A stretch of 64,000 nucleotides of DNA, taken from Crossaster papposus. Its lineage: Eukaryota; Echinodermata; Asteroidea; Velatida; Solasteridae. The DNA is taken from positions 434,001-498,000 of the forward strand of contig JBAIAA010000784.1 of NCBI GenBank assembly GCA_037893245.1. Direction: 5' to 3'. The position numbers and the translations under genes are program-made. Below the pieces are notes generated by a model. It saw nothing but the letters and a program-made list of their open reading frames with translations, ran no database searches and had not been told where the DNA came from. This document shows positions 520-64,000 of the stretch, piece after piece. Position 1 is the stretch's first letter; the number at the start of each line of letters is the position of its first letter.

Positions 520-52726
<52,207 letters not shown>

Positions 52727-52730
52727 GTGA

Positions 52731-55700
52731 TGTATACGTGTTACGTGTACACTGAGCAGAAAAGAAGTAGCACTATTTCATTAGATGTTAGCCGCGTGAA
52801 AATGTCTCATCAATTTAATATCTTAGCATTGCTGTTTGTTAGAGCTAAATTAGCGGGTTTTGGTGTATTGGTATTCCCGAGTATATACGTTAATTGCGTA
52901 GCCTGTTGTCAAGTGCTTAACTGGTTTTCGAAAAGAAAACAAGCTTATGATTGTATGTAGATAAGGGTAGAAGATCCTAGAGTAGATCCTAAAAATGTAA
53001 GGAATTAATGGAATTAATACAATTAATACAATTAATAATTGTTGTAACTAAAAACATGGAATTGCACAGCATGGCATGTTATCATTAGCAGTAATATTTT
53101 TCCAAAGGAAATTATTATTAATTACAAATTATGGAAATTCTCCAATAATCTCTTTTCCCACGCTTCTTATCAACTGTATTATTTCTCTATGTTTAAAAAG
53201 GTTACCATTCGATATTTGGCATGTTTACGTGATGAAAATACATCACTTGAGTTTCTGACGCACAAACATAGTATAGTAAGAAATATTCCATGACATTGGG
53301 CGCTTAGTCTTGACAGAGTGGTTTCTTTTGCTTGTTTTATTTGAAGGGATCGTATACGTTTGGTAATTGGAACCCACTGTTTGTTGTATTCCTATATAGT
53401 TATAGATATATACCATAAAACTAACCTGTAACAATTTCATTTTAAAGGGTGATAGCGATTTTGAGATATTGCCTAAAATCTGGAGCGGTTTTGTACAGCA
53501 TGGCATGTTATCATTAGCAGTAATATTTTTTCCAAAGGGAATTATTATTAATTACAAATTATGGAAATTCTCCAAGTATCTCTTTTCCCACGCTTCTTAT
53601 CAATTGTATTATTTCTCTACGTTTAAAAAGGTTACCATTCGATATTTGGCATGTTTACGTGATGAAAATACATCACTTGAGTTTCTGATGCACAAACATA
53701 GTATAGTAAGAAATATTCCATGACATTGGGCGCTTTTGCTTGTTTTATTTGAAGGGATCGTATACGTTTGGTAATTGGAACTCACTGTTTGTTGTATTCC
53801 TATATAGTTATAGATATATACCATAAAACTAACCTGTAACAATTTTATTTCAAAGGGTGATAGCGATTTTGAGATATTGCCGAAAATCTGGAGAGGTTTT
53901 GTCCACGCAGGAAGAATAATCTGCATTTGAATACACAGTCTGAGAAACTTTACTGCTTCTGAGATTCAAATTTTTCGGGATAAAAAGTGATATTCTTTTT
54001 CCATAACCGCAGTACTTCGAAGTGAAAAATGCATTATACTATCCAAAAGCTGCTGTACTTCTTACCAAGTAAGTTTTTATTGCCATTAATTTTTTGAGTA
54101 ATTACCGAACGTATACGATCCCTTTAAGTCGGCGTCTTTTTGTAGAAATGTATAATTGTGTATGATTTTCTATGATAATGTGACCATTGGCGTAGATATA
54201 TCTGTGTCAGGGCATTCGCTGGGGGGCATCAGGGACGCCCAAGAATACCACGACCCCGGAAATTTAAATAGGCCGTTCTCGCGCGCATGGTTGATCAGCC
54301 CGTCGTAAATAATTTGTATACGTGTTACGTGTACACTGAGCAGAAAAGAAGTAGCACTATTTCATTAGATGTTAGCCGCGTGAAAATGTCTCATCAATTT
54401 AATATCTTAGCATTGCTGTTTGTTAGAGCTAAATTAGCGGGTTTTGGTGTATTGGTATTCCCGAGTATATACGTTAATTGCGTAGCCTGTTGTCAAGTGC
54501 TTAACTGGTTTTCGAAAAGAAAACAAGCTTATGATTGTATGTAGATAAGGGTAGAAGATCCTAGAGTAGATCCTAAAAATGTAAGGAATTAATGGAATTA
54601 ATACAATTAATAATTGTTGTAACTAAAAACATGGCATTGCACAGCATGGCATGTTATCATTAGCAGTAATATTTTTCCAAAGGGAATTATTATTAATTAC
54701 AAATTATGGAAATTCTCCAATAATCTCTTTTCCCACGCTTCTTATCAACTGTATTATTTCTCTATGTTTAAAAAGGTTACCATTCGATATTTGGCATGTT
54801 TACGTGATGAAAATACATCACTTGAGTTTCTGACGCACAAACATAGTATAGTAAGAAATATTCCATGACATTGGGCGCTTAGTCTTGACAGAGTGGTTTC
54901 TTTTGCTTGTTTTATTTGAAGGGATCGTATACGTTTGGTAATTGGAACCCACTGTTTGTTGTATTCCTATATAGTTATAGATATATACCATAAAACTAAC
55001 CTGTAACAATTTCATTTTAAAGGGTGATAGCGATTTTGAGATATTGCCTAAAATCTGGAGCGGTTTTGTACAGCATGGCATGTTATCATTAGCAGTAATA
55101 TTTTTTCCAAAGGGAATTATTATTAATTACAAATTATGGAAATTCTCCAAGTATCTCTTTTCCCACGCTTCTTATCAATTGTATTATTTCTCTACGTTTA
55201 AAAAGGTTACCATTCGATATTTGGCATGTTTACGTGATGAAAATACATCACTTGAGTTTCTGATGCACAAACATAGTATAGTAAGAAATATTCCATGACA
55301 TTGGGCGCTTTTGCTTGTTTTATTTGAAGGGATCGTATACGTTTGGTAATTGGAACTCACTGTTTGTTGTATTCCTATATAGTTATAGATATATACCATA
55401 AAACTAACCTGTAACAATTTTATTTCAAAGGGTGATAGCGATTTTGAGATATTGCCGAAAATCTGGAGCGGTTTTGTCCACGCAGGAAGAATAATCTGCA
55501 TTTGAATACACAGTCTGAGAAACTTTACTGCTTCTGAGATTCAAATTTTTCGGGATAAAAAGTGATATTCTTTTTCCAAAACCGCAGTACTTCGAAGTGA
55601 AACATGCATTATACTATCCAAAAGCTGCTGTACTTCTTACCAAGTAAGTTTTTATTGCCATTAATTTTTTGAGTAATTACCGAACGTATACGATCCCTTT

Positions 55701-61820: not shown

Positions 61821-62663
61821 TTATAAGAGTGCCCTTACACATTTACAGTTTTTGCATCTGCTCCTACATGCACACTTCAGCAACACTTCAGGACAGGACA
61901 CTCTAGCTTCTGGCAAATGTGTCCACAAGGGTGTCCACTGTTCTGGACAAGTCCAACCCCAGTCAGCAGGAGATGGTATTTGACGATATGGCACCGTAGT
62001 ACTAGCCCAGATATGTCCACCTTGCAAGACTGCTCTTCTAATATGTTGCTGTAGAGCAGCCTTGGTGGGAGGAAGAGATGACATCTGACGGCCTTTGTGT
62101 GTGAATAGAAGCTTTCGAACTTCATTGATAGAGGTACATGTTGCTGTCCTGTCATAGAGAAGTATAGTGAAATACTCCAATGAAGATTCTGTCTCTTCAG
62201 ATATTTGCTGTGGTGAATTGTGCAGCTCATAGAAGGTTTCAGTGAATTCATCATGTGTTGCCCATACTTTCCATGTAGTCTTCTTTCCCACTTGGGCTAA
62301 CTGGGATACAGTGTCGCAGCCTGTGAAAGCATGAAACACCAGAAGTGCCACAGATTTCTGTGGACCAAGTGATGCACATATTTCATGAGCAGGGATGTAG
62401 CGAAAGTTCTTGCCAGTACCAAATGCAATCCAAAGTTCTGCCCTTCCCAGCTGTGGCAGAACAGCTACTGCAAGCACAACTACGTCAGTATCTACTGTTC
62501 GAACAAGGATCTTTTGAAAGCCCAGCATGATGGCATCTGCAACATGCACCATGATTCTGGAATCTGCTTCCTCATGGTTGCAGGGAGCTAAGTTGGTCAT
62601 GTCTTGAGTAGGGGTGTGCAGTGTCGCCCTTGGTAACAACGAATTACTTCCCTGCAGTTGCAC
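61821..62663 (-). pseudogene. 'FTGCDT' mobile-type gene, copy 2 (C-terminal half)
   Basis: A continuous 280-codon minus-strand frame equivalent to the C-terminal half of the gene at 8238-12650: NHEEADSRIMVHVADAIM, LVRTVDTDVVVLAVAVLPQL, IAFGTGKNFRYIPAHEI, LVFHAFTGCDTVSQLAQVGK, YFTILLYDRTA, LPPTKAALQQHIRRAVLQGG, PSPADWGW and a terminal cysteine cluster CACRSRCKNCKCVRALL. The frame is intact here, but the N-terminal half is absent and the upstream sequence passes straight into the tRNA array. The copy is therefore truncated, though younger than copy 1. Confidence 0.75.
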
Positions 62664-62800
62664 GTGCTACAAGTTCACGATTAAGGAGTTTGAACAAAGA
62701 GGTATTTTTGCTTCACTGTTATTCAAATTTAATAAATATTTTAGAATGTTTTTAGAATGTCTGCTTTTATTTTGTTTGTTGTTTTTCTAAATTTACATGA

Positions 62801-62872
62801 GGCATGGTGGCGCAGTGGAAGCTTGCTGGGCCTATAACCCAGAGTGCCGAGGATGAAAACCTCGCTCTGCTG
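62801..62872 (+). tRNA. tRNA-iMet-like segment A1, anticodon TAT (likely pseudogene)
   Basis: 72 bases aligned to initiator tRNA-Met: GGTGGCGCAGTGGAAGC (D arm), CTGGGCCTATAACCCAG (anticodon arm with GGG/CCC stem and TAT in the CAT position), CGAGG..CCTCG (T stem). The 5' acceptor GGCATG does not pair with the 3' CTCTGCT. Confidence 0.7.
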
Positions 62873-62906
62873 CTAATAAGTTTTTGGTATGACTTGAAGT
62901 ACTCGA

Positions 62907-62977
62907 CTCAGAGTGACAAGTAGACCCTTTCTTGGTCAGTAACCGAGAGTTCGGATGAGCACAACCTCGGTCTGCTC
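62907..62977 (+). pseudogene. Third, decayed tRNA-iMet-like segment C1
   Basis: About 71 bases aligned to the same tRNA: CTCAGAGTGAC at the 5' end, CTTGGTCAGTAACCGAGAG in place of the anticodon arm, and ACAACCTCGGTCTGCTC at the 3' end. Repeated at about 63308-63379 and 63711-63782. Confidence 0.5.
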
Positions 62978-63026
62978 AGGATAATTTTGTATTTGATAGG
63001 GATTTCATTTTCATTAAAAATAGTTA

Positions 63027-63098
63027 CGCAGAGTGGTGCAGTGGGAGCGTGATGGGCCCATAACCCAGAGGTCCGAGGACCAAAACCTCGCTTTGCTA
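63027..63098 (+). tRNA. tRNA-iMet-like gene B1, anticodon CAT
   Basis: 72 bases: CGCAGAGTGGTGCAGTGGGA (acceptor and D arm), ATGGGCCCATAACCCAG (anticodon arm, loop CCCATAA, CAT), CGAGGACCAAAACCTCG (T arm with initiator-type A54), then CTTTGCT and A. Acceptor pairs 2-7 form (one G-T); pair 1 is C.T and the top anticodon pair is A.G. Confidence 0.7.
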
Positions 63099-63200
63099 AC
63101 GAGGTATTTTTGCTTCACTGCTATTCACATTTAATAAATATTGTAGAATGTTTTTAGAATGTCTGCTTTCATTTTGTTTGCATTTTCTAAATTTACATGA

Positions 63201-63272
63201 GGCATAGTGGCGCAGTTGAAGCGTGCTGAGCCCATAACCCAGAGTGCCGAGGATCAAAACCTCGCTCTGCTG
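63201..63272 (+). tRNA. tRNA-iMet-like segment A2, anticodon CAT (likely pseudogene)
   Basis: As A1 but with CTGAGCCCATAACCCAG, so the anticodon is CAT with an A.C mismatch in the stem. The acceptor stem is broken (GGCATAG against CTCTGCT). Confidence 0.65.
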
Positions 63273-63427
63273 CTAATAAGTTTTTGGTATGACTTGAAGT
63301 ACTCGACTCGGAGTGACAAAGTAGACCCTTTCTTGGGCAGTAACCGAGAGTTTGGATGAGCACAACCTCGGTCTGCTCAGGATAATTTTGTATTTGATAG
63401 GGATTTCATTTTCATTAAAAATAGTTA

Positions 63428-63499
63428 CGCAGAGTGGTGCAGTGGGAGCGTGATGGGCCCATAACCCAGAAGCCCGAGGACCGAAACCTCGCTCTGCTA
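63428..63499 (+). tRNA. tRNA-iMet-like gene B2, anticodon CAT (best copy)
   Basis: CGCAGAG pairs with CTCTGCT at all positions except the first (C.T). The anticodon loop is CCCATAA; the T arm CGAGGACCGAAACCTCG keeps the GACCGAAACC B box close to that of initiator tRNAs. The top anticodon-stem pair is A.G. It is the copy most likely to be transcribed. Confidence 0.75.
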
Positions 63500-63603
63500 A
63501 AGAGGTATTTTTGCTTCACTGTTATTCAAATTTAATAAAAATTTTAGAATGTTTTTAGAATGTCTGCTTTTATTTTGTTTGTTGTTTTTCTAAATTTACA
63601 TGA

Positions 63604-63675
63604 GGCATGGTGGCGCAGTGGAAGCTTGCTGGGCCTATAACCCAGAGTGCCGAGGATCAAAACCTCGCTCTGCTG
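63604..63675 (+). tRNA. tRNA-iMet-like segment A3, anticodon TAT (likely pseudogene)
   Basis: Same variant as A1 (GGAAGCTTGCTGGGCCTATAA), confirming that units 1 and 3 are the same type. Acceptor stem broken. Confidence 0.65.
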
Positions 63676-63830
63676 CTAATAAGTTTTTGGTATGACTTGA
63701 AGTACTCGACTCAGAGTGACAAAGTAGACCCTTTCTTGGGCAGTAACCGAGAGTTGGGATGATCACAACCTCGGTCTGCTCAGGATAATTTTGTATTTGA
63801 TAGGGATTTCATTTTCATTAAAAATAGTTA

Positions 63831-63902
63831 CGCAGAGTGGTGCAGCGGGAGCGTGATTGGCCTATAACCCAGAAGTCCGAGGACCAAAACCTCGCTTTGC
63901 TA
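63831..63902 (+). tRNA. tRNA-iMet-like segment B3, anticodon TAT (likely pseudogene)
   Basis: Acceptor CGCAGAG/CTTTGCT is kept, but the anticodon arm ATTGGCCTATAACCCAG has two stem mismatches and TAT in the anticodon position. Confidence 0.6.
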
Positions 63903-64000
63903 ACGAGGTATTTTTGCTTCACTGCTATTCACATTTAATAAATATTGTAGAATGTTTTTAGAATGTCTGCTTTCATTTTGTTTGCATTTTCTAAATTTAC

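Follow-up and report, generated by a model that had tools for sequence, protein, structure and literature searches.

The stretch of Crossaster papposus DNA analysed here (64,000 nucleotides, hereafter the window; C784:434001-498000 of a 1.02-Gb assembly in 1841 contigs) ends inside a tandem array whose units carry sequences resembling initiator tRNA-Met (iMet). Is this a cluster of genes or a satellite, and how did an initiator tRNA come to be repeated in it? In our view the array very probably belongs to a satellite family that was born from a small group of iMet genes, amplified as a trio of copies (A, C and B), spread and partly decayed.

Tandem organisation of iMet-derived units in the window

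TRF reports an iMet-derived tandem array at positions 62699-64000 of the window, with a period of 403, 3.2 copies and 93% matches, and BLAST sets its left end at 62696. Each unit of about 403 bp holds three bodies of about 72 nt in the order A-C-B, all on the + strand, and the units follow one another head to tail. Alternate units are more alike (97.8% between u0 and u2; 100% over 95 bases between u1 and the cut unit u3) than neighbouring ones (95.0% for u0-u1 and 94.5% for u1-u2). An earlier interpretation made without database searches (the sequence-only reading) had claimed just this: a tandem unit of about 400 bp, a closer likeness of alternate units and, in each unit, three iMet-like segments that point the same way. 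The last point stands on Rfam matches for A and B and, for C, on the resemblance of its body to A (score reached by 0 of 1000 shuffles) and to B (2 of 1000). Judged by these likenesses, A, B and C are all descended from iMet. The features are as follows.

62696..64000, + strand: iMet-derived satellite array, left end (TRF period 403; start from BLAST; runs on to C784:532072)
62801..62872, + strand: A0, iMet pseudogene, anticodon TAT (RF00005 34.4 bits; mismatches at gene positions 5:67 and 11:23; first acceptor pair G.U)
62881..62885, + strand: TTTTT run, Pol III terminator-like, after A0
62907..62977, + strand: C0, decayed iMet relative, one base shorter than C1 and C2 (without Rfam match)
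63027..63098, + strand: B0, iMet pseudogene, anticodon CAT (36.3 bits; mismatches at gene positions 1:71 (C.U) and 26:42)
63107..63111, + strand: TTTTT run after B0
63201..63272, + strand: A1, iMet pseudogene, anticodon CAT, anticodon stem GAG/CCC (39.6 bits)
63281..63285, + strand: TTTTT run after A1
63307..63378, + strand: C1, decayed iMet relative
63428..63499, + strand: B1, iMet pseudogene, anticodon CAT (37.6 bits)
63508..63512, + strand: TTTTT run after B1
63604..63675, + strand: A2, iMet pseudogene, anticodon TAT (38.9 bits)
63684..63688, + strand: TTTTT run after A2
63710..63781, + strand: C2, decayed iMet relative
63831..63902, + strand: B2, iMet pseudogene, anticodon TAT, three stem mismatches (27.5 bits, under the gathering score)
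63911..63915, + strand: TTTTT run after B2

Decay of the window copies

Five of the six A and B copies in the window reach the gathering score of the Rfam tRNA model RF00005 (29 bits), with 34.4, 39.6 and 38.9 bits for A0-A2 and 36.3, 37.6 and 27.5 bits for B0-B2, as compared with 58.7 bits for an intact iMet. A covariance model thus does score copies of this array as tRNA, a result on which the sequence-only reading had staked its claim. The C bodies in the window had no Rfam match at E <= 1, and ARAGORN called zero tRNAs in the window. When aligned with the Drosophila iMet, the A copies are identical at 61-63 and the B copies at 60-64 of 72 positions.

All six A and B copies carry at least two stem mismatches, and the acceptor stem is mismatched in every one of them. 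The A1:U72 pair is absent throughout (G.U in A0-A2, C.U in B0-B2). The anticodon reads CAT in A1, B0 and B1 and TAT (UAU) in A0, A2 and B2, and the GGG/CCC anticodon stem is present in A0, A2, B0 and B1 but broken in A1 and B2. A54 and A60 are found in all six copies. A TTTTT run starts nine bases beyond the end of every A and B body, so that the plan of a Pol III gene can still be recognised. As far as sequence can tell, the A and B copies of the window are pseudogenes and none is an intact gene.

These data do not agree with the earlier statement that only B retains the acceptor stem, the GGG/CCC stem and A54: the A copies score 34.4-39.6 bits against 27.5-37.6 for B, the features named are shared or lost as described above, and it is A that occurs as an intact gene elsewhere in the genome.

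Extent and higher-order structure of the arrays

The array continues beyond the window, as the sequence-only reading had stated, to position 532072 of C784; it measures about 35 kb in all, with 85 A copies in the main orientation, and a further two-unit piece lies at 555 kb of the same contig. Similar arrays extend to position 938183 on C833 (at least 68 kb) and to 158192 on C424 (at least 48 kb, including a 1.8-kb break). All three run head to tail with small breaks, which is the long-array organisation of a satellite. The unit recurs at eight more sampled places on seven contigs (C146 twice), and this presence on several contigs speaks against a lone assembly artefact, the other outcome that would have undone the sequence-only reading. 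To the right of 158192 on C424 and of 938183 on C833, the flanks share long pieces that are 97-99% alike; the two arrays may therefore be alleles (uncollapsed haplotypes) or a segmental duplicate.

Types of A alternate between neighbours at 150 of 169 places on C833 and 98 of 109 on C424 (each reached by 0 of 10000 shuffles). On C784 the alternation is found at 40 of 84 places (12 of 10000 shuffles), mostly in a tetramer of the form XXXY, and in one 10-kb slice of C146 it was not significant (10 of 18; 1053 of 10000 shuffles). Mean unit identity at lag 2 and lag 1 was also compared for 320 units of 380-420 bp over four contigs, other spacings being dropped: it is.966 and.916 on C784,.975 and.900 on C833,.978 and.900 on C424, and.994 and.970 on C146 (11 units). 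The C146 subfamily is only about 0.91 alike to the units of the other contigs. Short units of about 174 bp and inverted copies are also present in the arrays.

The decay seen in the window extends to all three arrays. An A-U first acceptor pair was found in 0 of 365 A copies and 1 of 356 B copies in the main orientation on C784, C833 and C424. None of these 365 A copies is free of stem mismatches and 213 read TAT; the set omits the copies in opposite orientation (5 on C784 and 12 on C424), one of which has no stem mismatch. The consensus of the Pol III type 2 B box is GGWTCGANNCC. It is matched exactly by 18 of 85 A copies on C784, 76 of 170 on C833 and 57 of 110 on C424 (main orientation), by 0 of the 356 B copies, and, in one slice of C146, by 14 of 19 A and 0 of 28 B copies.

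Genome-wide amount and exact copies on C146

Junctions between A and C, searched as a 30-mer with up to 3 mismatches, number 23,572 in the genome, a count that, like those below, could shift through assembly collapse or duplication. At about 400 bp per unit this corresponds to about 9.4 Mb, or about 0.9% of the 1.02 Gb. Nucleotides 1-44 of iMet gave 13,187 matches with up to 3 mismatches. This figure leaves out most copies of the window type, since 60 kb of C784 contain a single match to that pattern. The full 72-nt iMet with at most one mismatch occurs 2,555 times, 2,479 of them on the reverse strand. Reversed-pattern controls for the genome counts gave 0 matches. The idea that an initiator tRNA has been amplified in satellite fashion with pseudo-tRNAs embedded in the repeat is thus borne out at the scale of the genome.

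Among the full-length matches listed, all are exact and lie on C146, from 5.441 Mb on. When this contig was sampled with 20 slices of 500 bases, eight were wholly satellite, namely one at 4.35 Mb and all seven at 5.55-6.60 Mb, the latter in a single orientation; the other 12, including those at 5.40 and 6.75 Mb, were without satellite. Together with the exact copies listed from 5.441 Mb, these slices suggest that C146 holds a satellite block of about 1.2 Mb, which would be continuous between the samples. Four 10-kb slices of C146 contained 70 A copies, of which 21 are exactly iMet (8, 8, 5 and 0 by slice), and the gene-like member of the unit is therefore A, not B. The non-exact A copies have 1-9 differing positions, except for 11 of the 70 that carry a one-base deletion (appearing as 17 differences). 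Twelve additional exact iMet bodies in the C146 slices carry the B-type 3' flank. The exact copies score 58.7 bits with RF00005 and retain the A and B boxes and the T run.

Five perfect iMet copies, each with 58.7 bits, are also present on C885, where their flanks are non-satellite. This group looks like a set of ordinary iMet genes, and they may be the ones that serve translation. Four of the five have the 5' flank sequence GTGCAATGAA in common (C885 563118-574052), and three of these are about 850 bp apart.

Variation of bodies and spacers

Diversity was calculated from 40, 169 and 100 units of C784, C833 and C424, respectively, and ranges over.066-.073 for A,.049-.059 for C,.038-.057 for B and.047-.096 for the spacers; the repeats being near-identical and not independent, such figures have no simple error bars. 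As a group, the bodies are not clearly better kept than the spacers, so that the tRNA bodies of the three decayed arrays look neutral on this comparison, although the values of B and C, at the low end of the range, count against neutral drift. In the three window units, tRNA bodies had seemed to change faster than spacers (variable sites: 17 of 215 versus 8 of 185; Fisher p 0.15), but this was not upheld in the 309 units of the three arrays.

The first C146 slice (11 units) has a diversity of.010 for A,.010 for C,.031 for B and.000-.033 for the spacers. Over the 70 A copies of four C146 slices, the A body (.041) varies less than its 5' flank (.056), but not less than its 3' flank (.035). Likewise, 35 of 70 A bodies are within one base of their commonest form, against 19 of 70 for 5' flanks of equal length and 57 of 70 for the 3' flank, which is shorter (31 bases). 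These values would be compatible either with some constraint on the A bodies of C146 or with neutrality.

Origin of the satellite

The three bodies resemble one another: the A-B and A-C scores were reached by 0 of 1000 shuffles and the B-C score by 2 of 1000. Their flanks of 34-60 nt show no such likeness (145-769 of 1000 shuffles score as high), and BLAST alignments of A with B stay within the tRNA body. This combination fits separate gene copies followed by amplification of the block, rather than one long duplicated stretch. According to the scenario that we favour, three iMet gene copies (A, C and B) with unrelated flanks would have come to lie within about 400 bp, B and C would have decayed at a time when A remained intact, and the A-C-B trio would have been amplified head to tail into higher-order repeats. 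Amplification probably proceeded through unequal exchange and gene conversion, with which the higher-order repeats, the short units of about 174 bp and the inverted copies fit. Blocks of repeats would then have spread to several contigs. The C146 branch, with its block of about 1.2 Mb, would have retained many exact iMet copies, whereas the A1:U72 pair and, in some copies, the CAU anticodon would have disappeared from the branch of the window, which includes C833 and C424 and would be drifting as a neutral satellite. Most copies would be silent or yield no working initiator tRNA.

It is conceivable, if rather unlikely, that the family is a centromeric or pericentromeric satellite and only incidentally of iMet origin. 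Such a role would be compatible with the origin proposed here, so that the two probabilities overlap; the size of the C146 block, the single orientation of its seven sampled slices and the higher-order repeats would suit it, whereas the other arrays are short and lie inside contigs (about 35 kb on C784).

Slightly less probable still is a bank of working genes comparable to rDNA. C146 would then supply iMet in bulk at times of extreme protein synthesis, perhaps in the oocyte, the early embryo or at the onset of zygotic transcription, and the decayed arrays would be offcuts of its turnover; alternatively, damaged copies might make variant initiators (UAU anticodon) or tRNA fragments. The 2,555 full-length copies that carry no more than one mismatch, the A and B boxes and T run kept in the exact ones, and the better conservation of C146 A bodies than of their 5' flanks would be expected of such a bank. 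However, the genome has five exact iMet genes with non-satellite flanks on C885. Moreover, departures from iMet occur in the C146 slices in most B bodies, in every C body observed and in some of the A copies, including a variant with a one-base deletion (11/70), and the 3' flank is as uniform as the body (57/70).

Retroposition followed by tandem growth, for instance of a SINE, seems very improbable. Several tRNA-like parts in one unit do recall multimeric SINEs. Tandem repeats derived from tRNA-derived SINEs are described in reptiles in the available part of one source (PMC10702118). Here, however, A, B and C have unrelated flanks, a T run of its own follows every A and B body in the window, and all 8 further sampled places carry the same tandem A-C-B unit. 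Finally, higher-order repeats are hard to assemble and C424 and C833 are perhaps uncollapsed haplotypes, but an assembly artefact is scarcely credible for a unit that occurs on several contigs, inside contigs of 1.1-6.9 Mb, and in subfamilies only about 0.91 alike (C146 versus the others).

The satellite scenario, with A as its gene-like member, has consequences of its own. Human iMet genes number about ten, and the dose of initiator tRNA is commonly assumed to be restricted, since it influences the choice of start codon. Where near-perfect iMet sequences exceed two thousand, as here, the animal has to keep them silent or live with them, so that dose control of translation initiation can be put to the test. 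Intact gene, intact satellite and decayed satellite coexist in one genome and mark a route from gene to satellite DNA. The tRNA annotation of such a genome is liable to be swamped by satellite copies.

Other observations in the window and the assembly

Relatives of the array were sought outside the genome. An iMet-pattern scan of viral contigs returned one contig with bacterial-type tRNAs, a spacer-pattern scan returned two contigs without tRNA, and neither yielded a relative; a second iMet pattern gave zero matches in viral contigs, and BLAST of the array against plasmids gave no match. By BLAST, tRNA-Met genes of Campylobacter phages are about 80% alike to the array, which we read as the general resemblance of initiator tRNAs. 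The matching records are L004 (605-676) and seven other Campylobacter phage records, and six of the eight list no feature there.

Elsewhere in the window, simple arrays of (TTGAC)n, about 36 copies, and (TGTAAACA)n, 102 copies, adjoin at 3245-4236 (TRF). The same open frame of 118 aa occurs at 53612-53965 and 55187-55540. These two stretches, 1,575 bases apart, differ at 1 of 354 bases and remain alike beyond both ends, which indicates a local duplication. The open frames at 61824-62666 and 8344-8685, both on the - strand, are alike by eye (LPPTK...QH...R) and may be parts of a single repeated gene or mobile element. A Pfam search of 10 window ORFs, these two included, gave no family above the cut-off.

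The mitochondrial contig C1841 (16,330 bp) has a COX1 with 13 in-frame TGA. Within its first 648 bases, 6 of 6 AAA codons stand opposite Asn in the best-matching PDB COX1, and the 4 AGA codons opposite Ser, Ser, Ala and Gly, none opposite Arg; with TGA as Trp, this is the table 9 code of echinoderm and flatworm mitochondria. In our judgement, how closely the sequence matches such a COX1 would favour an echinoderm over a flatworm. C8, a contig of more than 5 Mb, has stop-free COX1-family matches near 2.87 and 5.21 Mb and is perhaps a bacterial contig in the animal assembly.

Comparison with known systems

The 3.18-kb tDNA unit of Xenopus laevis, present in about 150 copies, contains iMet together with several tRNA isotypes. 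It likewise places iMet genes in a high-copy tandem repeat, but it is longer and of mixed isotypes. Satellites bearing tRNA in newt, frogs and maize, and tandem arrays of tRNA genes, show that the kind of element described here is known. We did not find, in those parts of the open-licence literature available to us, a satellite of initiator tRNA whose unit combines intact and dead copies.

Among the satellites, PolIII/TAN of the newt Cynops (a tandem repeat of about 360 nt, transcribable in vitro), the Xenopus OAX 'satellite I' and Rana/polIII (about 250 nt, in some frogs up to 10% of the genome) are tandem repeats with a tRNA-related part, like the array here (PMC10702118). As described in the available text of that source, each has one such part, whereas the present family has three iMet bodies per unit, forms higher-order repeats and includes copies that match the intact gene exactly (PMC10702118). 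Maize tRNASAT_ZM is also a satellite array named for tRNA, but it is a plant element and, in the part of the report at hand, forms a single array in the genome, of 91.95 kb on chr4L (PMC10335936).

Among the gene arrays, those of Hydractinia and Nematostella are described, in the sections available, as evenly spaced, with tens to hundreds of near-identical tRNA copies and near-identical spacers, and Nematostella as having more than 17,000 tRNA genes and pseudogenes (PMC11067881, PMC2888827). The Hydractinia arrays cover all 20 amino acids, whereas here one initiator tRNA is repeated with dead partners (PMC11067881); unlike both, the present family has more than 20,000 units beside ordinary iMet genes (PMC11067881, PMC2888827). 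In the human 1q23.3 tDNA VNTR, tRNA genes also lie within a long tandem repeat, but on the available account the unit is of 7.3 kb, with 9-43 copies per allele, and binds CTCF (PMC4041453). Arabidopsis offers repeats of about 0.4 kb with a tRNA gene and a pseudogene side by side, as here, but in a plant and, as far as these sources describe, in 4 units of about 420 bp for tRNA-Cys (PMC10701932) and 27 units for the SYY cluster, where the array meets heterochromatin and is silent in most tissues (PMC12308677).
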